A DNA stretch of 28,069 nucleotides. It comes from Saccoglossus kowalevskii (Eukaryota > Hemichordata > Enteropneusta > Harrimaniidae). A program made the translations under genes and the position numbers. How positions within the stretch are numbered: position 1 is the first letter of the stretch; every line of letters starts with the position of its first letter. The notes under the pieces were generated by a model. The model saw nothing but the letters and a program-made list of their open reading frames with translations, made no database searches and was not told the origin of the DNA. Of the stretch, positions 6,832 to 27,855 are shown in pieces. The DNA is taken from NCBI RefSeq assembly GCF_000003605.2, contig NW_003148776.1, positions 104,133 to 132,201 on the forward strand, read 5' to 3'.

Positions 6832-7398
6832 TTAAATAATTTGTCTCTTTTTACTCATGACATTCAATGGACCACATCTATTTTCACATGGTGAATTGAA
6901 AACAAGGAGACTCTTGGGTAATTGACCGATATCTGGTTTACTTCCCCATTCATCTGCGCCATCACAGCAGTCACAAATACCGTCATTGATTCGATTTGAT
7001 GGTACAAACCGTTCCTCAGCAATACAGTAAAACTTTCCACTGGGACAAGCATTTGTACCCGGTTCATCACTACCATCATCAGGACAGTCACAGTAATTAT
7101 CATTGAGACGAGCAAATGGTATTTTTTCACTTCGGTCAAGGCACTCGAACATGTCGTCTCGGTCTGGTGTGTAAAGTTTACGAAGTTTGGGGTCAATGCC
7201 CCGCACCGTTTTATATAGGCCACGCACACCTGATTGTGAGTTGCCAGCCATCTTGGAAGACAATTCATTCCGATTTACATCTTGGAAAAATGTTTCCATG
7301 GAAACGAACTGCAGGACAATGAAGAAAACGCCTGCTATTGAGCAGGCGATAAAACTTGAACACAACACGCGTCGTCGCATTCCTCGAAATCTCAACAT
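6832..7398 (-). CDS. glucosidase II beta-like (PRKCSH N-terminal domain) membrane protein
   Basis: The 188-codon frame starts at ATG 7398 (MLRFRGMRRR). Residues about 10-32 form a basic-flanked hydrophobic segment, likely a type II signal anchor. Then comes the cysteine-rich PRKCSH-like domain: RGIDPKLRKLY, FECLDRSEKIPFARLNDNYC, DCPDDGSDEPGT, and PSNRINDGICDCCDGADEW, with the two LDLa-like calcium-binding Asp/Glu clusters intact. In glucosidase II beta this region precedes a coiled coil, a mannose-6-phosphate-receptor-like domain and an ER retrieval signal; none of those is here. A ~19-residue insert separates the second repeat from a final CENRC. The frame stops at 6832 with AATAAA just after. 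It is either a complete short paralogue or exon 1 with a donor near 6850 (ATGA|GTAAAA). The product should face the ER or secretory lumen. Confidence 0.8.
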   Translation of the reverse strand: MLRFRGMRRRVLCSSFIACSIAGVFFIVLQFVSMETFFQDVNRNELSSKMAGNSQSGVRGLYKTVRGIDPKLRKLYTPDRDDMFECLDRSEKIPFARLNDNYCDCPDDGSDEPGTNACPSGKFYCIAEERFVPSNRINDGICDCCDGADEWGSKPDIGQLPKSLLVFNSPCENRCGPLNVMSKKRQII

Positions 7399-7743
7399 TT
7401 CGCCTTCATCAGCGCAGGCAAACACTTGTGGCTTCTAAGTATGTTTTATCCAACACAAAGCGTGCACGTTTACCAAACTGTGTATGAACTCAGACCAGCT
7501 TACCCTAATTAAACTGTGGCTCCCTAGGCCAGTTCAAAATGATAAAACTGCAGTAAGTACGTCATTTTTACAATTAAAGCATCAACAATGAAGCCTTACT
7601 AGTAATATATCTAGTAAACTTAATAATTTCGGATTTTTGGTAACAATTTTAAATTCTGGAGTAAGTATACGTAAATAACAAACCTAAGCTAAGGAGCCTT
7701 TATTCGACTGCTGGGATTCGACTTCCTCCTTTCCAATTTCAAC
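7399..7743. promoter_or_regulatory. head-to-head promoter region between the PRKCSH-like gene and TOMM70
   Basis: 345 bp separate the two divergent start codons, so the promoters are probably shared or overlapping. The TOMM70 start lies in AACATGGCGGCC, a match to the YY1-type initiator motif AAnATGGCGGC that often overlaps start codons of mitochondrial and housekeeping genes. No clear TATA box faces either gene. CpGs are moderately enriched in the two first exons. Confidence 0.55.
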
Positions 7744-7950
7744 ATGGCGGCCAGCAGCGGTACGAACAACGTGGGCGAAGACGGATCATGGCCAAAGTGG
7801 GCAATCGCTTTGGCTATCGGAGCCCCGGTTGCTGTTGGATTGGCCGGAGCATATTACTATACAAAGAAGAAGACGGGTGTGTCGGAGAGAAAAGACCCAG
7901 AAGGCAGAACGGACGAGAACGTGGTGACCGAATCAAAACCACCGGAGTTG
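7744..7950 (+). CDS. TOMM70: TOMM70 exon 1: mitochondrial import receptor TOM70, signal anchor
   Basis: TOM70 sits in the mitochondrial outer membrane and receives Hsp70/Hsp90-bound precursors, mainly carrier proteins, for the TOM channel. This exon encodes residues 1-69. A short N-terminal segment (MAASSGTNNVGEDGS) faces the intermembrane space. Residues about 19-39 form the membrane anchor (WAIALAIGAPVAVGLAGAYYY), followed by KKK and a charged linker. The start ATG is in a strong context, AACATGG. The exon ends at ...GAGTTG|GTAAGT, phase 0, and the next exon joins in frame. Together the eight exons make 483 codons of a family that is usually about 600; the rest lies beyond the right edge. 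Confidence 0.95.
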
Positions 7951-8223
7951 GTAAGTCCCCATTTACCTGTGAAACTGTTTTATGTCCATGATGGTTTGCA
8001 GAATATATTTATTGTATTTTAAGGTATGGTCTACGTGCTCATGTAGCGTTCTTATTGTAATTAACGTTTTTATTTTCTACCTTTCATGTATGTCTCGCTG
8101 GTATAATAATCATATTTTAATAATATGTAGCAGGTAATGCCCGGTAAGCGAGCGCAGTCGAGTGGTTGGAAAGAGTTCCTTTAACACTCCACATCTAACC
8201 CTAACTCTAACCCTCACACAAGA

Positions 8224-9276: not shown

Positions 9277-9285
9277 CAAAAAACT
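9277..9285 (+). repeat. target-site duplication, right (CAAAAAACT)
   Basis: Exact copy of 8398-8406. It overlaps the outer edge of the long inverted repeat that begins around 9279, so the Foldback-like element appears to have inserted at the tip of that older element. Confidence 0.6.
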
Positions 9286-9511
9286 AACTCTGCGATGCGA
9301 TTGTGCATCTCGCAGAATGTTGATTATTGCACTCTGCGAAAGGGTCGCAGAGAGCACGATTCCCATTGGTTGGCTGGTCGAAAAGCGCGAATCCCAATCG
9401 TCGATGCCCATAATATTACTTCTTATTTACAGTGTAACGGTTCGCCTCGTGCCTTATAGAAAAATTAAGTTTGAAATGGTAAAAATGGTACAGTAAAAAA
9501 ATAATGGCGAC

Positions 9512-9628
9512 ATGCCACACTGTTTGGTAATCGGCATGCACATTGAAGACAAATTGTGGGACCAAACAAATGTCACATGGTTTATGGTGGTCAGACACAC
9601 CACACTGCTGGCTAGAAAAGTGAAATAG
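9512..9628 (+). other. small arm-encoded ORF starting MPHC (left arm copy)
   Basis: A 38-codon frame starts MPHCLVIGMHIEDKLWDQTN and continues VTWF. The mirror-image position in the right arm (11466-11371, minus strand) is also open and starts MPHCSIISMHMENKLWDQTN. The MP-x-C-S-V-x-G opening faintly recalls the first residues of THAP zinc fingers. The remaining C2CH residues are not visible, so no function is assigned. Confidence 0.3.
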
Positions 9629-11317
9629 TGTAACGTGCACGTTGGTGTTGACTGCCTATTTACGGTGTAACGTTATTGCCATCTTGGAGTTGTAAGGCGC
9701 CATCCCAACGACTATGCTCATTAGCATAGACATCAGCTTCAAAGTGAGTGGAACGCGAGTACTTTTCACACGTTCGACAATGAATGTTGCACCAGAGTCC
9801 CTCTGTTGGGGAACTGTGGTTGTACACAGTGAACAAAAATCATTCGCTATGTGCAATGTTTTTCCATGACAGCAGTTGTTAGCAAGCATCTGCCTTCTTT
9901 TAAATCATAAACTGACTCGAAACGAGGAAAAATAAACACTTGTGGTCTACGATCGATCAGCTGATATTTTAACCATCAGAAATGAAATACTTTGTAACAG
10001 TTGTGAAAAGTAAACAAAAACGACGTTAGTTTGTGGTATGAATGTACCTACGGTAATCATAATTTTCGAAGTCAGTATTACTGAAAAATTATGGTTAAAT
10101 TTTTTAAAATGAAAGCCAAACTTCAATGATCCATTTTAATCTTAATGTCATTTTTTTTCTTGATTTTTCAAAAGTTGATAAAACTTTGTACCTTGACCGA
10201 AATTCGGAAAGACCATGCTCAAACGTTAACACTACCTACCGTCTTGTTAATATAATTGCATAATGTTTATCTTTGGGACGGTTTAAATGATAGGATCTTG
10301 TCTGTATACTCTGATAGAACGGGTGATAAGCTTCCCGTCGCAAACAATGTGTATTTATTTATCTGACGTCCATTGTCAGCGTTATTGTCAGTCAAGACTT
10401 TGTCTGAGAAATCGTTTTATTTTCCAAGTCTATATTCTATTTTAATAACACCATCTTACTAACGCAATGACAATAAAAAGAAAGCAAGCAAAGACGCAAA
10501 TGACAGACGAGGCAAAGAAACTCAGTGACTAAGGGTCATGTTTACTACATGTATTTTAGACTTTCCTGCAGTCGTTGTGATTCCAATGAAAAATTACAGG
10601 ACTTTTGTGTTCACCCCTCGTTTACACAATTTATATTTATTTTTCAATAATGTTTCATCTAATCAAAACAGACTGCAGGCAAGTCTAGTTCATATTATGA
10701 CCAAACTCACAAGTGGTTCGAAAGGGACGATGAGGTTGAACTATAGTCTATTTGCATTAAAGCAATAGAGTATCAACTACTTAACCGATGACGACACCGA
10801 TACGCGAGACCGTTGAGGGGCAGTGATCAGATGAGGAAGTGAGTACAGAAAATCTGTTGACATCGGCCAAATAAACAAAGCCATCATTCCCGTTTATGCA
10901 GAGAGAGCTCACCCATCTAATTTTCCATTGACACTGCCATTTTAGTTTTCTATCTACAGCAGTGGTTTTAATCCATTCACATAGCTATACATTTTTTTCT
11001 CTTAATATTCTTAATAAAACGAAATTGATTGCTGAGAAACAGCTGAATGCTTTGTTTGGGAGTTCAAGTGGTGAACAATAGTCATAACAAATTATACTTG
11101 CTAAATGATGAAAAAAGAAGGTTACATCGATAAAGCATAGTCATAAACAGTGAACCTTTTAATTGAATATTTTTGCACTTTATTGGAGACGAAAATTCAC
11201 AAGTCAAAGCTGACGTACAACATTCGTTGTAGAACGTGTGAAAAGTACTTCATGTTCCACTCACTTTGAAGCTGCCGCCTATGCTAATGAGCATAGTTGC
11301 GAGACGAAGCAACACCA

Positions 11318-11385
11318 ACGTGCACGCTACACTATTTCACTTTTCATGTCTACGTGCACGCTACACTATTTCACTTTTTATGTCT
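11318..11385 (+). repeat. 34-bp tandem duplication inside the right arm
   Basis: Two adjacent 34-bp copies (11318-11351 and 11352-11385), each starting ACGTGCACGCTACACTATTT, differ at one base. The left arm has only one copy, so the duplication arose after the arms were formed. Confidence 0.85.
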
Positions 11386-12421
11386 AATCACCGTAAACCA
11401 TGTGACATTTGTTTGGTCCCACAATTTGTTTTCCATGTGCATGCTGATTATCGAACAGTGCGGCATGTCACCGGTACATACTTGTTTACCGTAGTTCTCA
11501 AGCAGTCAGTGAAATAACAGTTTAAAATTTAACATTTCTATAAGATATGCGGTGAACCCTTACACTGTAAATAAAGAACTAATATCGACCATGTGATTCA
11601 TGCTTTTCGACCAACCAACCAATAAAAATCATGCTCTTCGCAGAGTGACTCTGCGACCCTTTTGCAGACTGCAATTATCAACATTCGGTGAGTCGCACAA
11701 TTGTGTCACAGAGTTAGTTTTTCATACCTCGTTGTAGGTATGAATTAGGGTTTACACCTGTAGGATGTGTGACACGTGTTTACATGAAGATTTCTGAATG
11801 CATTCGCAGTTACCTGCTTTATGTGTTTTTTGTAATGTCATTCTAGTGCACAGCCGCTTACTTTCAGAACTAACCAGAAATGAAATCAGTGAATTTTGAC
11901 CTTTCGGTCATTGTCGTTCCTGTTCAATTTGGTCAATTTTTTGGATGAGTTACGGCATTTTTAATTTTTGTTCCTTTCATCTACAATATTTATGAATATA
12001 TAATGAGCAAATTTATAGCAATATTTCTCATTATTTTGACTTTTCCCAGAATTTGTTGATCTTTTTCTATAAACGTCTAATAGCGATGTTGGCATCGACA
12101 GTGTTCTTTTGTGTGGACGCTTCGTAGTATTTGTAGACAATGCCTTTGAAAACTTGATATGCTCATGCAACTATGCGATTGAAGTCATTTAATATTCAAT
12201 AAGAAGCTGACATTTTAATGGTGCATAAATTTTAATTATCTCTGTTCTCACCTTTTTGTATAATTACAGTAACACAGAGGATAAACGTAGAAATAATTGC
12301 ATAATAAAAACTTCCAGTTCTGTTAATGGGTTTGCCCGTTAAACTGTGTATTAAATAAATTACCATTGATATTACACGTACACATTTTCTTGCATTAAAG
12401 TTCAGTCTGTCCTTGTTTCAG

Positions 12422-12595
12422 AGTCCTGCCGAGAAAGCCCAGTCTGAAAAAAACAAAGGCAATAAGTACTTCAAAGGTGGTAAATATGATCAAGCCATTA
12501 AATGCTATTCCACAGCCATAGATATCTGTCCAGAGGAAAATACTAAAGACTTGTCAACATTCTACCAGAATAGAGCTGCAGCATATGAACAGTTG
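12422..12595 (+). CDS. TOMM70: TOMM70 exon 2: first TPR motifs
   Basis: Encodes residues 70-127. The acceptor is tgtttcag|AGTCCT and the donor CAGTTG|GTGAGT, phase 0 on both sides. The peptide has EKNKGNKYFKGGKYDQAIKC (TPR1) and LSTFYQNRAAAYEQL (start of TPR2). The N of the KNKGN segment and the N of YQNRAAA correspond to carboxylate-clamp residues that hold the EEVD tails of Hsp70 and Hsp90 in the TOM70 family. A 20-bp minisatellite begins about ten bases into the following intron. Confidence 0.95.
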
Positions 12596-12604
12596 GTGAG
12601 TTCT

Positions 12605-13515
12605 GGAGGGGTGGATGGGTTGTACATAGGGTGGATAGGTTGTACATAGGGTGGATAGGTTGTACATAGGGTGAGTGGGTTGTGCATGGGATGAGTGGGT
12701 TGTGCATAGGGTGAATGGGTTGTGCATAGGGTGGATGGATTGTGCATAGGGTGGATGGATTGTGCATAGGGTGGATGGATTGTGCATAGGGTGGATGGAT
12801 TGTGCATAGGGTGGACGGATTGTGCATAGGGTGGACGGATTGTGCATAGGGTGGATGGTTTGTGCATAGGGTGGATCGATTGTGCATAGGGTGGATCGAT
12901 TGTGCATAGGGTGGATCGATTGTGCATAGGGTGGATGGATTGTGCATAGGGTGGATCGATTGTGCATAGGGTGGATGGATTGTGCATAGGTTGAGTGGGT
13001 TGTGCATAGGGTGGATGGATTGTGCATAGGGTGGATGGATTGTGCATAGGGTGGATGGATTGTGCATAGGGTGGATGGATTGTGCATAGGGTGGATGGAT
13101 TGTGCATAGGGTGGATGGATTGTGCATAGGGTGGATGGATTGTGCATAGGGTGGATGGATTGTGCATAGGGTGGATGGATTGTGCATAGGGTGGATGGAT
13201 TATGCATAGGGAGAATGGGTTGTACATAGGGTGAATGGGTTGTACATAGGTTGAGTGGGTTGTACATATGGTGATTTGGTTGTGCATAGGGTGTGTGGTT
13301 TGTACATTTGGTGAGTGGGTTGTGCATAGGGTGACTGGGTTGTGCATAGGTTGCGCATAGGGTGAGTGGGTGGTGCATATGTCGAGTGGGTGGTGCATAT
13401 GGCGAGTGGTTTTGTACACATGGTGAGTTGGTAGTGCATAGGGTGGATGGTCTGTGCATAGGTTGAATAGGTTGTGCATAAGGTTAGTGGGTTGTACATA
13501 GGGTGAGTGGGTTGT
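12605..13515 (+). repeat. 20-bp minisatellite filling TOMM70 intron 2
   Basis: About 45 head-to-tail copies of a 20-bp unit, TGTGCATAGGGTGGATGGAT. The centre (about 12720-13200) is nearly uniform, while both edges are degenerate (gtgagtgggt, gtgaatgggt and similar variants). The array occupies most of the 1076-bp intron (12596-13671). On the minus strand all three frames stay open for 200-300 codons because the unit lacks stop triplets; that is a consequence of the repeat and not evidence for a gene. Confidence 0.97.
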
Positions 13516-14982: not shown

Positions 14983-17775
14983 ATGGCCGAAGAAAGTGAG
15001 ATAAAGCCCAGACTCGCTGTGTGCCTCCTTTCCGACACGTACGTCAATATGCCGTCCTATACAGATAGGAAGTGTTTTATGAAAACAAGAAGGAAACTGA
15101 AGAAAACACGTCAATCATGCTGTGGCACAGGGAGTGATAAGTTTGACATTGTTACGACAGATTTTTCACCAGCAAAGCATGGGAAAAGAAAGAAATCCAA
15201 AGCAAAGGAAACATTTGACGTCTGTGAGTTACTAGCCGAACGTACCATGAACACCAGTGATAATAGTCCACTCAAGAAAAGGCGTAAAAAGAAAAAGAAC
15301 AAACGCAAGTCGGAGACTGTCTCCTCTGACAACGAACATGTGATTACGGAAGAAAGCCGCTCGAAGGACTGTGGGGGCAAACTAGGAGGCAAACCAGGAG
15401 GCAAACGTAAATCGAAGACGAACCGTAAAGTGGTTGAATCGCCAGTTGCCGACGAAACAGATGCTGAAGAAACGGGAGTTGGTCACGCTGAAATACAATG
15501 TGCCGTCGAAGATGTGATACAATTTTTGCAAAACAATGTTTGCGATTCGGAACCGTCGACATCCGCCNNNNNNNNNNNNNNNNNNNNNNNNNNNNNNNNN
15601 NNNNNNNNNNNNNNNNNNNNNNNNNNNNNNNNNNNNNNNNNNNNNNNNNNNNNNNNNNNNNNNNNNNNNNNNNNNNNNNNNNNNNNNNNNNNNNNNNNNN
15701 NNNNNNNNNNNNNNNNNNNNNNNNNNNNNNNNNNNNNNNNNNNNNNNNNNNNNNNNNNNNNNNNNNNNNNNNNNNNNNNNNNNNNNNNNNNNNNNNNNNN
15801 NNNNNNGTGTTGTGTATGCACACGCATCGCCAATGGACACGCGTGATGATGAACTTGTATTGGACGAAAAAACGGGTGAGCTACGACACAAAATACCAGA
15901 TGATTTCATAGTTGCAACTGACGACGATACAGATTCAGAAATCGATGAAGATCGTGCTGAGAATGACGATTTTTTAGAGCAACGTTACCCACCTGTACTC
16001 GATAGCGACATTGAAATTGAATCCGACACAGAAATTGGTGCTACATTCGATTATGTTGCCTCCGGCACTGGTGAATGGAGAATGGCCACGGAGGAAGACG
16101 GCGATATATTTACTATTCCAGTTTTTGAACTCGAACCTGGACCAACTTTCGAACTGCCTTCATATGCTCCTGAGGTGGAATATTTCTACAAATTTATCCC
16201 ACCAGAACTGATAGAACTGGCTTCTACCGAGACTAATAAATACGCCAAATATCATCAAAAATGCATTGCAAAAAAATTAAATGCCCGCTGGCGTAATACA
16301 AATTTCATTGAAATGCAAGCATTCTTTGGTGTGATGATATGTATGGGTGTTGATCACAAATCAGCAATCGACGATTATTGGTCGAGTGACCCCTTTCTGC
16401 AGAACATGGGAATTGCATCAGTAATGACTCAGGCCAGATTTCAAATGCTAATGCGTTATTATCATTTAGCTGATCCGGTAAATAACCCACAGCGGGATCC
16501 TGACATTGAACGTCGTCGTCAACGATCAGAGGCCGACCCGTTGTACAAAATCAACCCGTGGCTAAAACACATACTCGAAAATTGTCGGCGATATTATCAG
16601 ATGGGACAGGAAATTTCGATTGACGAGGGTATGGTGAGATTCAAGGAAAGGTCCATGTTTAAGCAGAGATTGCCCCACAAACCCGACCGTGATGGCTTCA
16701 AAATATGGCAGGTGTGCGACTCTACAACGTCTTACATTGCGAACTTTAAACTGTATTTGGGAGTGAAATATAAAACTACAAATGAGGGAAGAAAGAAACT
16801 GGGACAATCAAGAAGACTGTGCACCGGTTGTTACAGCCCCTCACAGAAAAAAACCATATTCTTTTCTGTGAGTCGCTTTTTACCTCAGTTAACACAGGCC
16901 TTGAATTACAAGACAAGAAAGTGTACATGGTCGGTAGTTTTAGCAGACGAAATCGGAAAACCATGCCGCCACAATTAATTCCTGAGGGGAAAAGCAAGAA
17001 GCTGAAATTGAAAATTGGTGAAATGAAAGCAGCAACTAGACCGGACGACACTATCAATAATATTACTGCATACCAGGATGACAGCACGCAAATATTGATT
17101 TTAAATACAGTCTATCCCCCACTGGCTACTTCGGCAGAAGCAGTAGATGACGACAGACACATGCCTGTATCGTTACAATGTTCCAGACATCACATGGGTA
17201 GCATGGATCGTTCTAACCAAAGGCGAAAATACTATCACACGGGCAGAAAAAACAATCATTGGTCGATCTGCATGACCTGTTACCTCATAGATGTTGCATT
17301 GGTCAATGCTTATGAATGTTTCAAGGCATTGAATCGCACGACTAAAGTAACGCACAAATTCTTCAATATCTGCACAGGTAAACAACTGATTGGTGGACAC
17401 TCGAGTAGAATTCAAAAATCCACAAGAGAAGTTGGCTCTCTTCCAAGTAACACGTCATTTATTCGTAGTGAAAACATGGATTCGCACGAAATATGCAGAC
17501 TACCCGGGCATCAAAAATCGTGTAAGCAGTGCAGCAAGGACGGGAGAAAAACAGCGAGTGGCCGATTATCAGAAACATCGAAAGGATGCCCAATTTGTAA
17601 AGTTCACCTTCATGCGAGTGAATGTTTCGCTGCTTTTCATCACAACATGGCACTGAGGGGAAAACGCACCGTGGGAACACAAACACGAAGTTCGGAAGAG
17701 CAGCCCTCGACATCAGGCAGACACATGGGAGAAGCCCACCAGGGTGGACGACTAAGAAAGGCGCACAACAAATAA
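14983..17775 (+). pseudogene. piggyBac transposase, frameshifted and interrupted by a sequence gap
   Basis: The start ATG 14983 is in AACATGG (MAEESEIKPRLAVCLL). The N-terminal part is basic and acidic by turns, with a nuclear-localisation-like KKRRKKKKNKRK; 239 N interrupt it at 15568-15806. After the gap an acidic stretch precedes the DDE_Tnp_1_7 core: FIPPELIELAS, NFIEMQAFFGVMICMG, YYHLADP, ISIDEGMVRFKERSMFKQRL, PHKPDRDGFKIWQVCDS. Near 16786 the frame slips by one base (a G seems lost from GGGG), then continues as CESLFTS, NRKTMP, MGSMDRSNQ and LIDVALVNAYECFK. It ends with a Cys/His-rich finger (CRLPGHQKSCKQCSKDG, then CPICKVHLHASECFAAFH). The first catalytic Asp is present (16622-16624); the second position is Glu (16870-16872); the third is Asp (17206-17208) but its usual partner is Asn (17215-17217). 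AATAAA overlaps the stop. Confidence 0.9.
15568..15806. other. assembly gap (239 N)
   Basis: A run of 239 undefined bases inside the transposase N-terminal region. The frame before the gap differs from the frame after it when N are counted literally, so either the gap size is an estimate or an indel lies within. Confidence 1.
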
Positions 17776-19890: not shown

Positions 19891-20062
19891 AAATAATGCA
19901 TTGTTTGAAAAATGCCGATCTCATCTGATTGTTCAACATTTATGTGTTTAAAGCATTGTTAAACATCCTATGTTTTGAATTTTAACAGAATATGACATCC
20001 TGGATCTTGCACTTCAATTGAAATAAATCTTCCAAATGTTTGTATCACATATTGTTTTGCAG

Positions 20063-20328
20063 ACCCGCACACCTTCGATGCCTTCCAAGCAATTTATCAA
20101 GTCATACTTTTCCTCATTTGCGCAAGATATCACAACACAACCATTAGAAAGTTTACCTGTTGAGAAAACAAAGAGCATTGATAAAGTAGACATTGAAAAA
20201 GACGCACAAGACGTGGAATTGGTAGAGGATGTAAAGAATGAGACTGATGGAGAAGATGAAAAAGTAGAGGGTGACAACGATGATGAAGATAAGGACAAAG
20301 ATGAAAGTGTGGAAACTCCAAAATCCAG
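20063..20328 (+). CDS. TOMM70: TOMM70 exon 5: linker between TPR clamp and core
   Basis: Encodes residues 207-294 and two bases of a Ser codon. The acceptor is tgttttgcag|ACCCGC and the donor AAATCCAG|GTATTT, phase 2. SMPSKQFIKSYFSSFAQDI matches the conserved MPSPQFIKSYFSSF motif of TOM70. It is followed by a long acidic, lysine-rich linker (about residues 235-290, with repeated ED/DD/KD) that is longer and more acidic than in vertebrates. The linker separates the chaperone-binding clamp from the C-terminal precursor-binding domain. Confidence 0.95.
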
Positions 20329-20410
20329 GTATTTATATTTGTTCTATTTACCAGGGTATTATTTATTTTTTGTTGTTGTTGTTGTTTGTAGACTTCATTT
20401 GTGTAGTTTT

Positions 20411-20762
20411 TAGCTTCGCTGTTGACAAAGTCATCTTCTTCTTCGAAACTGCAAGTCAGAATGTTTTCAAATACTTTCAACTTCTTGTAAAAAAACGCAA
20501 GTCTGATTGCTTTGATATTACATAGATAGGTACTACATGTGGACCTCTCTCAGCTTTGTTCATTTTGTGATATCTTTAATTCTCTAATTTTGATGAATAT
20601 TTTTGTCATTTTGGTAAAAAGTGATATTTTCGACTTCTTGTTAAGTCTGATTGCTTTGATACAATACATATTGTTCATTTTCTAATGATATCTTCAGTTC
20701 TTTAATTGAAATGTGTATTGCTAACAGTGGAGATATCTCAGCCGACAGGCTGCTTGTAATTA
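20411..20762 (+). repeat. short copy of the AGCTCCGCTG-type repeat element (intron 5)
   Basis: Starts TTAGCTTCGCTGTTGAC and ends GCTAACAGTGGAGATATCTC followed by AGCCGACAGGCTGCTTGT. It contains about one and a half copies of the ~156-bp internal unit (TTCGACTTCTTGTTAA, GATTGCTTTGAT, TACTACATGTGGACCTCTCT, GAATATTTTTGTCATTTT). It is the same family as 23188-24050 in intron 6 but with fewer internal units and more diverged tips. Confidence 0.8.
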
Positions 20763-20820
20763 AACTGACCTGTTTATCATTATTCATCCTGTATCACCAT
20801 TTTCTCTGTTCTATTTTCAG

Positions 20821-21025
20821 TGGATACAGAAAAGCCAGAGAATACTTTGATAATGAAGATTATGACAAAATAATTGATGAATGTACAAAAGAGATTGATA
20901 GTGAGGGACCATGTATGGCTCATGCTGTGTTGATGAGAGCCACTTTCTATATGCTAAAAGGACAGGCCAATCTTGGTAAACCTGGCTTAGATGATGTTAT
21001 TGATATGGAAAGTGCTGATAAAATG
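20821..21025 (+). CDS. TOMM70: TOMM70 exon 6: start of the C-terminal TPR core
   Basis: Encodes residues 295-363 (first base completes the Ser codon). The acceptor is tattttcag|TGGATAC and the donor AAAATG|GTAAGT, phase 0. YRKAREYFDNEDYDKIIDEC followed by TKEIDSEG matches the TOM70 segment in which the helix YDKII.EC..EID begins the C-terminal TPR superhelix. MRATFYMLKGQANLGKPGLD is the second helix pair. Confidence 0.95.
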
Positions 21026-21245
21026 GTAAGTTAAGGATACAAAGCCACTTAGCTTAGTGGTTATTATGGTATTGTGTGGATTTTACAAAGTTTGCACAAA
21101 AACTGAATAGGAATCATTGGAATTGCAAAACAGTTTTCTATGGTTACAAGAACACATACAAGTTTACAAGATGACACATGGAATACAAAAACAATGAATA
21201 TATATATATATATACATGTATATAGACACAGTGGTTTACGGTATA

Positions 21246-21254
21246 TCTCTTTTT
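21246..21254 (-). promoter_or_regulatory. purine-rich histone-downstream-element-like sequence
   Basis: On the minus strand AAAAAGAGA, starting 12 nt after the stem-loop-like sequence 21282-21267 and preceded by CC. In replication-dependent histone genes a purine-rich element of the CAAGAAAGA type at about this distance pairs with U7 snRNA. Confidence 0.45.
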
Positions 21255-21266
21255 GGAATATGTGTT

Positions 21267-21282
21267 GGCCCTGAAAAGGGCT
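21267..21282 (-). promoter_or_regulatory. histone mRNA 3' stem-loop-like sequence, distal copy
   Basis: Minus strand AGCCCTTTTCAGGGCC. It has the 16-nt geometry of the histone stem-loop: a 6-bp stem with a 4-nt TTTC loop and the usual T-A closing pair. Only the outermost pair (A opposite C) is mismatched. A purine-rich element follows. It lies 79 nt beyond the transposase stop codon. Confidence 0.6.
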
Positions 21283-21319
21283 GTTGTTGGGAGTTCACCT
21301 CGAACAGTTGAGATTTGTT

Positions 21320-21335
21320 AGCTCTGAAAAGGGCT
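21320..21335 (-). promoter_or_regulatory. histone mRNA 3' stem-loop-like sequence, proximal copy
   Basis: Minus strand AGCCCTTTTCAGAGCT, again a 6-bp stem with a TTTC loop and one internal C/A mismatch. It begins 25 nt after the transposase stop codon at 21363-21361, the distance typical in histone mRNAs. Its 5' flank, ACAAAC, is A/C-rich as in real histone stem-loops. The loops would be GAAA on the other strand, so the signal is directional. Confidence 0.6.
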
Positions 21336-21360
21336 GTTTGTTTCGTCTGGTTTCTTCATA

Positions 21361-22847
21361 CTATTCGACGTCGTCACTGTCGCTGTCAAACAAATTAGCG
21401 TTAATTAGCGAAATCATGTCGTCTTCTGTCCCGTCTAAATTGTTGGAGATGCCACCTTTCAGGAAAGATTGTTTCACAGTAGTTTCGGACCACAATCCGT
21501 CGACCCAGTCCACGATCAAATCTCTACTCGCACATTTACGTTTTCCAGCAGGAGTAAATTTGGCATGTCCTTCCTTCATCCACAAATCCCATAAGTTGTG
21601 CAAGCTGTCTTTTACTGGCCGATTCATTCCGACGTCAAGAGGCTGAAGGAGTGAAGTAATGCCGCCAGGAATTACCGCTATGTCGACGTTTCTCTCTGTC
21701 AGTGCAGCCTTTACTTTTGCCGTCAGGTGAACCGAGCAAGAGTCCCATATTAGCAGTCTTCTACTTTCGTCGTCGCGATGTGGAAATGTGTGTCGTATGC
21801 AGTCAAGACAGCCTAGAAATAAACAAAAAGACAAAATAAGTTCCGAACTACAAAAAAGGCATGCGGTTCATGCAGACGACCTAATTTACATACAGGACGT
21901 CATATGGCGCCCCAATCAAGCAATGCCCAAAGAACATACGAGTATATGTTGGAGTACCGGTAACTGAAACATCCGGTCATTCTACCCAGATTTCCCAGTG
22001 AATAACGTATGCTCTAAAAATAGAATATCGGTACTATACTTTTATTTGTAATGAAAAAAAACCTTACCTGGTTCATCAATACCGGTATATCCCTTGGGAT
22101 GTACTCGAACTTGAACGCTTCCAGTTGACAAGTGAGACTGATCACGCTTCCCTTTAAATATGATCACCGGTTTCAGCTTGGTACCATCTGCAGCAACTTT
22201 TAACACTACCGTGAAACCCTTTTTCTCATTTCCTGTCGTTTTTATATGTACAGTCTGAGCACCCTTATGGTCTAGTGTGTGATTTCCAGGCATATCGAAG
22301 CGCAATGGCGTTTCGTCAAAGTTGAATATGTTGGATAGTGGGTAATTGTGTTGTTGTCGAAGTCGGTAACGTAGCGATGAAATGGCGTGATTTTTTTTTC
22401 TTCATAATCTGGCGGTAACTTTTGTCCGATTGATGTCCTTTGATGGGTCGACAAAGTGTGGTGATGTTTGAAACATCTCAACCAGCCCTCTGATGCCTTG
22501 AAATTTTTACTGCTCTACGCTCTGAGTGTCTGGCGTTGTAGCTGCTTCCCGGTGACTCCATTGCCATTTTTACGCTGGTTTTCAAACCATTGCAATAAAC
22601 TGCTGTCTGCTTCCTTGTCAGTGACAGACCGACCTCCGCCTGCTAGACGTTTAGCCGATTTTGATCTCACTGCAAGTTTGTCTTTTTGCTTGATCCAATC
22701 ACGAACCTGTCTTTCATTTAGACCGTAATGCTCAGCAGTCTTTCTGTTGTTGCCCCACTCGAAAGCAGTTGAAACAACCTTCAACTTGCATGATAGGTCA
22801 TTAGCTGCGCGTCTGCGACTGCCACTTGGTTTTGTATCCTTCGGCAT
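21361..22847 (-). pseudogene. pogo/Tigger-like transposase gene with one intron, broken
   Basis: The start is ATG 22847 (MPKDTKPSGSRRRAANDLSC). A Brinker/CENP-B-type helix-turn-helix follows (KLKVVSTAFEWGNNRKTAEH, YGLNERQVRDWIKQKDKL), then a Tc5-type second DNA-binding domain (FKASEGWLRCFKHHHTLS). The DDE_1 core has the first Asp in FNFDETPLRFDMPG, the second in LLIWDSCSVHLT and the third in SLLQPLDVGMNRPVKD. An intron (22067-21813, CCAG|GTAAGG ... TTTCTAG) joins DEPG to CLDC in frame. Two lesions are seen: an in-frame TAG at 22517-22515 and a one-base shift at a nine-T run (22391-22399). Past the shift the frame still reads well (RYRLRQQHNYPLSNIF), so the damage is recent or partly sequencing error. 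The C terminus is acidic (DSDSDDVE). No TIRs were identified. Confidence 0.85.
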
Positions 22848-25625: not shown

Positions 25626-26844
25626 CATTTTTACATTTTCAAGGTCTTGAAAAAAACATGAACGTAATTTCCAAAATATGCAATAATGACATGCTGACTT
25701 TAGCAGACCAGTAGAAACCATTGGTTGAGTTTATACTTATCATTACTGTGAATGAATCGTCAGAAATGAAATTTTTTCAACCCATCAAAATTCTCGAATG
25801 TTCTTTGTTGAACTTGACTCACATTGTGCACATGATATGCAATATATATAGTTCATTCTACCACAATAAATATTATCATTGCTAATAATTCCAACTACTG
25901 TAAAATACTTTATTTTAGCCAGGATTAATTTTCACTGAAAAAACTTTTTGGGTGTTTCTGCATTTTTTTCACTGATTGTTGGTGAGTTGAATATAAAATA
26001 TAGGAAAAAAGGATTCTTCAGCAAAAATAGCGAAAATAAAGCATTTTACAATAGTTGTTCATCATCAAAACAACACAAAATTTTGACAATATATCTGATG
26101 GTATGACGGGTTTCTGATGCACATGATTTTTAGGTGTTTTGAATTTTTGCTGATTGTTGGATGTGAAATATTGGGAAAAGATATATTTGCTGGATTTTAT
26201 TTTCACTGAATTATCCCTGCATTCACAACCAATGAATAAAAGCATTTGCATGAACGCTTAGCACAGGCTATGAAATTATATGTATGGATTAAATCTGTCC
26301 TGTTTGTAAGACCTGGTCCTAGTTCAGGCTAAGTGTCCAAAACACCATTGTATTCTATGTCCACTTGAACAATTTACTATAATCATACTCATAATTAATC
26401 ACTTGGACTTGTACACTTCCAACACAACAATCAATGCGAGCACATCTAAGAAAATTGTTCTTGAGCAAAAAATAAACTAACTATGAGACTCTGAGCTACT
26501 TGTTGTTATTCTGCAATTTGCACTTTCTGATTTTGCTTTGTTATAGTTGTAGAGACATAAAACTAACATGTATCATAGTTACAATAACTGAAGATTTTTG
26601 TATATTCTTAACAAGTTTGGGCGTTCCTAAGCCTGTGCTAACCACTGTAAATATTCATGATATCTAAGGCCATGTATTTTTATTTTCAGAATTGTATTTT
26701 TTCATTATTCAGTTAAAATTAATATTAATAACTTATGCTATTTATAGATATATCTTTGATTATAATAGCAGTAACAATAATTCACAAAAAATGCTGCTGT
26801 GAATTTTCAACTAGCTAACTGAACATGTACATTTCATTTTTCAG

Positions 26845-26979
26845 TTAAGAGTAAATGCATTAATCAAAAGAGGGAGTATGTATATGCAACAAGGTAACTC
26901 AACAGAAGCGCTCAATGACTTCGCGCAGGCTGTACGTATCGATCCAGAAAATGCAGACATCTACCATCATAGAGGACAG
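26845..26979 (+). CDS. TOMM70: TOMM70 exon 7: core TPR
   Basis: Encodes residues 364-408. The acceptor is tttttcag|TTAAGA and the donor GGACAG|GTAAGA, phase 0. LRVNALIKRGSMYMQQGNST, then ALNDFAQAVRIDPENADIYH and HRGQ follow the conserved TOM70 pattern in which RANALIKRGSMYMQQ and IDP.NADVYHHRGQ bracket a TPR. This domain binds internal presequence-like segments of precursors. Confidence 0.95.
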
Positions 26980-27059
26980 GTAAGAAATCGGTGTATAGCA
27001 ATCACCCAACATAGTTTAAAGAAATTGTCATTTATAGAAAGGTGGTCTATAAATAGAGG

Positions 27060-27087
27060 TTGATTAATTAATTAATTAATTAATCAA
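27060..27087. repeat. perfect 28-bp palindrome (TTAA/ATTA microsatellite)
   Basis: TTGATTAATTAATT continues as its own inverse to AATCAA. A short ATTA microsatellite whose two ends are mirror images. Confidence 0.9.
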
Positions 27088-27336
27088 CTGATAAAAATAC
27101 AGTAATAATTTCCCGGTTGAAGTTTGTCAACAGATGTTTGTTTTGTCTAGACTAAATAGAAAATGTCAGTGTGGAAAATATGTGAGCTTCTACTGTCATT
27201 TTGGCATTTATACACATTTGACCAAACTGGTACCAAAAGGGTGGCATCCATCCGTCCGTCCGTCCGTTCGTGCATGCATCCTGTATCTTAGACATGCCTT
27301 ACTGATTATATTCAAACATCATACTCATAACTCAGT

Positions 27337-27430
27337 CATGTTTATGTTAAAATTATATTACTACATGTATAAACAAAACTATATATCTTAAATTTGATAA
27401 CTAACAGGGACTGTGCCATGCATGGCTTGT
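27337..27430 (+). repeat. dispersed repeat end, copy 2
   Basis: Same sequence as 25538-25625, including the palindrome GCCATGCATGGC followed by TTGT. A short inserted piece (ACATGT) near 27363 distinguishes it. Confidence 0.85.
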
Positions 27431-27485
27431 TGTATTTAGCCATAATTTGTTATTGTTATTATAATCAATAATCTTTTAATTTCAG

Positions 27486-27710
27486 CTAAATGTTCTTTTG
27501 GACCGAGTTGATGAAGCACTCAAAGACTTTGAGAAATGTGTGTCTCTAAACCCAGGCTTTGCCTTGGCCCAAGCACAACACTGTTATGCAATGTATCGTG
27601 CCGCCTTTGCACAACGAAGTCCCATGCAGTTACAGGCAGCAATGAATGCTTTTGAAAAAGTTATAAAAGATTTTCCAAATTGTGCAGAAGGATATGCACT
27701 TTTTGCTCAG
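27486..27710 (+). CDS. TOMM70: TOMM70 exon 8: core TPRs
   Basis: Encodes residues 409-483. The acceptor is taatttcag|CTAAAT and the donor GCTCAG|GTGAGT, phase 0. LNVLLDRVDEALKDFEKCVS, LNPGFALAQAQHCYAMYRAA, and FEKVIKDFPNCAEGYALFAQ match the TOM70 TPR core, including the conserved ALAQAQ and CAEGYAL.AQ motifs. The remaining ~120 residues should follow beyond the right edge. The last ~20 bases of the exon and its donor are duplicated in the next intron. Confidence 0.95.
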
Positions 27711-27855
27711 GTGAGTCACCCTGGTTACATTGGAAACAGACAGTTGCTTATTTAATTTGGAGGGTTATGTACTCATTGCTCAGGTGAGTCGATCTGATCA
27801 CCTTGGATACAGACAGCTGCTAATTTAATGTGGAGAGATATGCAATCTTTGCTGA
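27690..27855 (+). repeat. tandem duplication of the exon 8 / intron 8 boundary
   Basis: Copy 1 (27690-27762) spans GGATATGCACTTTTTGCTCA, the donor, and CAGACAGTTGCTTATTTAAT. Copy 2 (about 27763-27836) reads GGTTATGTACTCATTGCTCA, then G|GTGAGT and CAGACAGCTGCTAATTTAAT. A decayed third copy starts GAGATATGCAATCTTTGCTG at about 27834. Copy 2 keeps a consensus GTGAGT donor. Confidence 0.85.

Follow-up and report, generated by a model that had tools for sequence, protein, structure and literature searches.

The window and its pogo-type transposase gene

In the window, that is, the whole stretch of 28,069 nucleotides from Saccoglossus kowalevskii analysed here, exons of a TPR-protein gene lie on the plus strand at 7693-8022, 12359-12649, 20027-21034 and 26815-27755. 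They match Pfam TPR only, and we take the protein to resemble the mitochondrial import receptor TOM70. One intron of this gene harbors a copy of a pogo-like transposon in antisense orientation, and a 20-bp minisatellite of about 40 copies (12489-13500) is also found within the gene. Further features are a glucosidase II beta subunit-like exon (6832-7434, minus strand; PRKCSH-like, E=1.2e-30), a large imperfect inverted repeat at 9279-11722 with its arms (9279-9792 and 11215-11722) in pieces, which is probably a foldback element, and a piggyBac-type transposase at 15518-17775 on the plus strand (DDE_Tnp_1_7, E=1.7e-47), which includes a run of N from 15568 to 15806. Near the piggyBac-type transposase we found no histone-type module of the kind described below. 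The pogo-like gene is composed of the following pieces:

22515..22847, minus strand: N-terminal part of the transposase, which runs from its start codon ATG at 22847 (identified by reading the letters) as far as an in-frame TAG at 22517-22515, with Pfam BrkDBD and HTH_Tnp_Tc5
22068..22514, minus strand: middle part of the transposase, open in two frames (22514-22272 and 22401-22068), with relatives at C2746 and C2073
21813..22067, minus strand: putative GT-AG intron, read from the sequence and deduced from the gap between the coding pieces
21361..21812, minus strand: C-terminal part of the transposase, with Pfam DDE_1 and the stop codon TAG at 21363-21361

The two N-terminal domains score at or over their cut-offs (BrkDBD, 25.8 bits, E=1e-5; HTH_Tnp_Tc5, 22.2 bits, E=1.4e-4) and DDE_1 reaches 36 bits (E=6.5e-9), by which the transposase is pogo-type. 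Its C-terminal part is 61-63% identical to the copy at C3323 (C numbers denote contigs of the assembly), while the middle part shows 57-67% identity to the copies at C2746 and C2073 and contains a frameshift near an A-run at about 22400. With this frameshift and the in-frame stop, the window copy is unable to encode an intact transposase itself. We looked for inverted repeats around it and found none. It seems to be an old, broken member of its family, and its age may be the reason why the inverted repeats are missing.

Histone-type 3' ends behind the stop codon

The first-pass annotation had reported two histone-type stem-loops after the transposase stop codon, with one mismatch in each stem, a purine-rich element behind the second and no AATAAA nearby. 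All of these observations hold, and the features are:

21320..21335, minus strand: SL1, the proximal histone-type stem-loop, AGCCCTTTTCAGAGCT, read from the sequence
21267..21282, minus strand: SL2, the distal histone-type stem-loop, AGCCCTTTTCAGGGCC, read from the sequence
21246..21254, minus strand: purine-rich histone downstream element, AAAAAGAGA, the same element in the same place as in host histone genes
21236..21291, minus strand: the whole, apparently captured histone 3'-end module (5' flank, SL2, spacer, purine element and TACCGTAA), covering positions 1-59 of 59 of the host-histone covariance model

SL1 starts 25 nt past the stop codon and SL2 a further 53 nt on, 78 nt past the stop. 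Both are 16 nt long with a 6-bp stem and a 4-nt loop, the mismatch being C4-A13 in SL1 and A1-C16, at the stem base, in SL2. The purine element follows SL2 after 12 nt, which is the spacing seen in host histone genes, and is missing from SL1. On the transposase strand, neither AATAAA nor ATTAAA occurs in the 40 nt ahead of the SL2 start or in the 260 nt that follow it.

A comparison with the histone genes of the same species, proposed in the first-pass annotation, gave a match of about 57 nt that takes in the flanks and the purine element. Ten host histone ends (H1, H2A, H2B, H4) have CACAAACCAAAC GGCCCTTTTCAGGGCC ACCACATCCTCCAAAAAGAGAACTACCGTA in common with little variation. When these ten ends were set against 15 pogo stem-loop places (14 copies, two of the places being in the window), flank, loop, spacer and purine element were found to be common to both groups. 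The module consists of an A/C-rich flank, the 16-nt stem-loop, a spacer of about 12 nt, the purine-rich downstream element and TACCGTA. This last motif is found 3' of the purine element in histone genes and also starts the inverted repeats of two transposon families.

We built a covariance model solely from 12 histone 3' ends of this genome; its E-values are rough, coming from a short calibration. In a search of the window, SL2 with its purine element scores 54.1 bits (E=2.5e-14) and SL1 22.6 bits (E=1.3e-4), the best other match in the window having 11.9 bits. These scores indicate that SL2 is homologous to a host histone 3' end, including the flank, the spacer, the purine element and the TACCGTA after it. 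In the scan with Rfam Histone3 (RF00032), also proposed beforehand, SL2 is detected with 27.5 bits (E=5.4e-4, window against 4227 families) but does not reach the gathering score of 34, and SL1 has just 13 bits (E=0.96). The predicted fold of SL2 has -7.6 kcal/mol (z -3.1) and that of SL1 -2.1 kcal/mol (z -0.55). Given its weak fold and Rfam score and the lack of a purine element, SL1 is unconvincing by itself. The two stem-loops are joined by a 26-nt direct repeat at 88%, and SL1 is most simply seen as a partial duplicate of SL2.

The possibility that the transposon inserted beside a histone gene fragment, raised as an alternative in the first-pass annotation, or that the similarity is due to chance, deserves hardly any credence. 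It is true that the core is just 16 nt long, that each stem in the window has its mismatch and that the Rfam score is below the cut-off. However, queries with H1, H2A, H2B, H3 and H4 match nothing in the whole window, and the same module lies within independent copies with different flanks (see below). Moreover, an exact pattern of stem-loop plus purine element has 92 matches genome-wide, the window included, and 0 in the reversed control; together with the E-values from Rfam and from the host-histone model, this excludes chance for SL2.

In comparison with the replication-dependent histone genes of animals (RF00032), the stem-loop, flanks, spacing and purine element are alike, with letters nearly identical to the host's own, and the difference is that here the preceding gene encodes a transposase and the element is mobile and dispersed. 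To our knowledge, non-histone genes with a true histone 3' end are very rare. Among the CC-licensed PMC papers searched, none came up that describes a transposon ending in this way.

The pogo family and the conservation of its module

The genome searched, which includes the window, is assembled in 4830 contigs totalling 572 Mb. A DNA query with the 3' part of the window transposon gave 41 matches: the query itself, one place similar to the transposase, and 39 covering only SL2 and the purine element, which fall in histone genes and other repeated elements. By protein, the C-terminal part of the C3323 transposase has 31 matches at about 25 places, revealing multiple dispersed copies. We delimited a close family after the hits had been seen, taking 10 places with E <= 1e-19 plus C3161, which matches C3323 by protein over 22 aa at 95% and by DNA at 99.5% over 430 bases. 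The 11 members are the window copy, C3323, C3161, C2242, C2746, C2073, C59, C2732, C1466, C1358 and C1422.

These copies were gathered by protein, not via the module, and in all 11 places the module follows the transposase on the sense strand, scoring 43.4 to 82.3 bits in the host-histone model. The stem is perfect in C3323, C1358 and C1422 and the stem-loop is decayed in C2073; in both C3323 and C2746 the stop codon is 32 nt from the stem-loop. The comparison with other genomic copies, which had been suggested as a check, therefore favours capture. Two short matches outside the close family (C11 and C1491:477349, 51-59% over 34-39 aa) showed no module downstream. Among 14 more distant places, the module was found in three (C2222, C3943 and, weakly, C1491:42410). 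It was not found in 10 of the 13 distant places tested, with a stretch of 311-521 nt fetched for each and the second match of C4080 left out (41 bases of sequence); these ten negatives are weak, since in most of them the protein match ends well short of the C-terminus. Searches for relatives by protein (viral and genome contigs) and by stem-loop pattern (viral contigs) found none, which says little, the collections being viral or prokaryotic.

Complete ends were recognized at C3323 and C3161, where 27-bp inverted repeats TACCGTAAAATATCTAATTGAGGCCGC (26/27 and 27/27) start with TA and the sequence outside them differs. The right end of C2242 is the same. In C3323 and C3161 the distance from the right end inwards to the stem-loop is about 300 bp, and the position of the module within the repeats together with the different outer flanks implies that it moves with the element. 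Capture of a histone 3' end by the transposon, the idea put forward in the first-pass annotation, is thus sustained: the module is present throughout the close family, is enclosed by the inverted repeats in two full copies and matches the host histone ends. On these sequence comparisons, we regard the capture as well supported.

One could also think of pogo-derived host genes that were domesticated and gained histone-type 3' ends as host genes. The distant member C2222 has an open frame of 502 aa (29% identity), and inverted repeats were shown for some copies only, with none found for the window copy. The repeats and TA of C3323 and C3161, the near-identical copies at different sites and the in-frame stops in several copies speak against domestication, which we hold to be very improbable.

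Compared with the pogo superfamily of the IS630-Tc1-mariner elements (Tigger, Passer) as characterized in the main text of PMC7386202, the DDE_1 transposase and the BrkDBD/HTH DNA-binding part are alike, as are the TIR below 40 bp, the TA target in full copies and the length of about 2.3-2.7 kb. The elements described here differ by their histone-type 3' end and by having no evident poly(A) signal; polyadenylation, stem-loops and the 3' UTR go unmentioned in that main text. In the stretch from -40 to +260 (shorter where less sequence is available), AATAAA and ATTAAA are absent from 8 of 11 copies and present in 3.

The conservation of the module was measured over 11 diverged copies, a set that omits C3161 and C2242, nearly identical to C3323, and the weak match C1491:42410. 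Median pairwise identity is 0.81 for the module (57 nt), 0.46 for the preceding 50 nt and 0.50 for the following 150 nt (0.48 when shuffled, computed on part of the pairs); the coding sequence (380 nt) has 0.53, from only 10 pairs of 5 copies. The module is more similar than the downstream stretch in 55 of 55 pairs. The downstream stretch of C1358 has 83 nt instead of 150, and without this copy the result is the same in 45 of 45 pairs (0.80 vs 0.51; shuffled module 0.46). Such conservation has to be explained by selection on the module or by its renewal from histone genes. Part of it could be due not to selection but to histone genes, by repeated recapture or gene conversion. The same module variants recur in near relatives (C59 and C1422, C2746 and C1466, for instance), a sign that the module is inherited with the element.

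Other transposon families and a possible link to S phase

The Rfam Histone3 search of the genome gave 73 matches, 65 of them over the cut-off, and the three best are the pogo copies C3323, C3161 and C2242, whose 42 bits are above those of the listed histone genes (36.9-38.7). The union of Rfam and pattern matches comprises 109 places, and the sequence was read for 78: 50 lie in transposon elements, 16 in histone genes and 12 elsewhere. Among the places read, transposon-borne histone 3' ends thus outnumber those of host histone genes. The 50 element places belong to a 1.5-kb non-autonomous family (35), its relative (4), a DDE_3 transposase family (3) and pogo (8, five assigned by script and C2222, C3161 and C1422 reassigned by hand from the class of others, their stretch being short or masked).

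The DDE_3 (IS630/Tc1-like) family at C1343, C3770 and C13 (L073, L074, L081; Pfam E=8e-22 and 1e-20) resembles the pogo family in having the same module after the stop codon and differs in the transposase domain. The stop is 27 nt (C1343) and 33 nt (C3770) ahead of the stem-loop, and all three close copies have the module; no more distant DDE_3 relatives were found in the module lists. Both pogo and DDE_3 elements are classed in the wide IS630-Tc1-mariner group. The 1.5-kb non-autonomous family (L029 and 34 further places) has TA and inverted repeats (TACCGTATTACCCCGGGCACGCGCCC, TACCGTATTACCCCGGGC...) beginning with TACCGTA, and the module inside its right end, on one strand and about 190 nt from that end. 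It differs in that no transposase was seen and in that 23 of its 58 right ends collected by pattern are without the module by the searches made, the other 35 having it. Some copies keep a HIRAN-domain remnant.

The module was also observed in repeats without a recognised protein (L085/L088/L111; L093/L112; L033/L044/L104; L034/L108; L031/L032; L013/L014). In L093 and L112 the stem-loop comes shortly after the end of an unknown protein that the two have in common. A MULE-like assignment of L013/L014 was discarded, since the motif was seen by eye only and there is no Pfam match.

The module could be a passenger or an element acting on DNA, captured once and since then retained by chance or because the transposase binds this subterminal site, with no role in RNA. 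Its retention at a fixed distance from the right inverted repeat of those 35 non-autonomous ends, and the TACCGTA found both in the inverted repeats of two families and after the purine element, would fit such a role. However, in every copy with coding sequence the module follows the transposase gene in sense orientation, and loop, flank and purine element keep the host-histone consensus (median 81%) where the neighbouring sequence is random. The 23 non-autonomous ends in which the searches made show no module also indicate that it is not needed for mobility there. We therefore consider a passenger or DNA-level role improbable.

It is probable, in our judgement, that a pogo-type lineage captured a host histone 3'-end module and employs it to end its transposase gene, from which histone-like RNA processing and a coupling to S phase would ensue. 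In histone genes, the stem-loop and the downstream element direct cleaved, non-polyadenylated mRNA 3' ends via SLBP and the U7 snRNP, and histone locus bodies contain active holo-U7 in S phase only, as set out in passages of PMC9756948. In the genome searched, the SLBP RNA-binding domain (PF15247) was detected at C1837 with two exon matches over the cut-off (51.2 and 33.8 bits). U7 snRNA (RF00066) has no Rfam match in the genome, where the control gave no match either, and one sequence pattern for it has 0 matches.

If the module works as in histone genes, the U7 snRNP machinery would cleave the transposase pre-mRNA a few nt 3' of the stem-loop, and the mRNA would remain without poly(A) and bound by SLBP. 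It would then build up chiefly in S phase and, as histone mRNA does, perhaps also in oocytes and early embryos. Transposition in S phase could bring a copy gain to a cut-and-paste element if it jumps out of DNA already replicated into DNA still to be replicated, or if the excision gap is repaired using the sister chromatid. Judged from the sequence, a histone-like, and thereby S-phase-coupled, end of the transposase mRNA in this lineage is the most likely outcome.

The captured end might instead serve only as a short transcription end, for cleavage and termination, with no meaningful S-phase coupling; its conservation would then stem from the requirement for a 3' end of whatever kind. S-phase expression of histone genes depends on promoters too, and in the 8 of 11 copies without a nearby AATAAA or ATTAAA the module is maybe the sole 3' end. 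The processing machinery is nevertheless described as active in S phase in the passages of PMC9756948 mentioned above, so some coupling would follow, and we find a mere transcription end unlikely.

Whether several transposon families here (pogo, DDE_3, non-autonomous and others) have histone-type 3' ends as a common device, inherited vertically, recaptured or exchanged, is for us a matter of even chances. Such a community of elements would make non-polyadenylated, SLBP-bound transposase mRNA coupled to S phase.

Rfam Histone3 matches in such genomes are not safely histone genes. If the module is functional, its 57 nt replace a poly(A) signal, and poly(A)-selected RNA libraries would miss the transposase transcripts. 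The transposase of the pogo lineage would then be held at the RNA level to S phase, when cut-and-paste movement can raise the copy number, and the replication timing of cut-and-paste jumps, an old question, would become directly testable.
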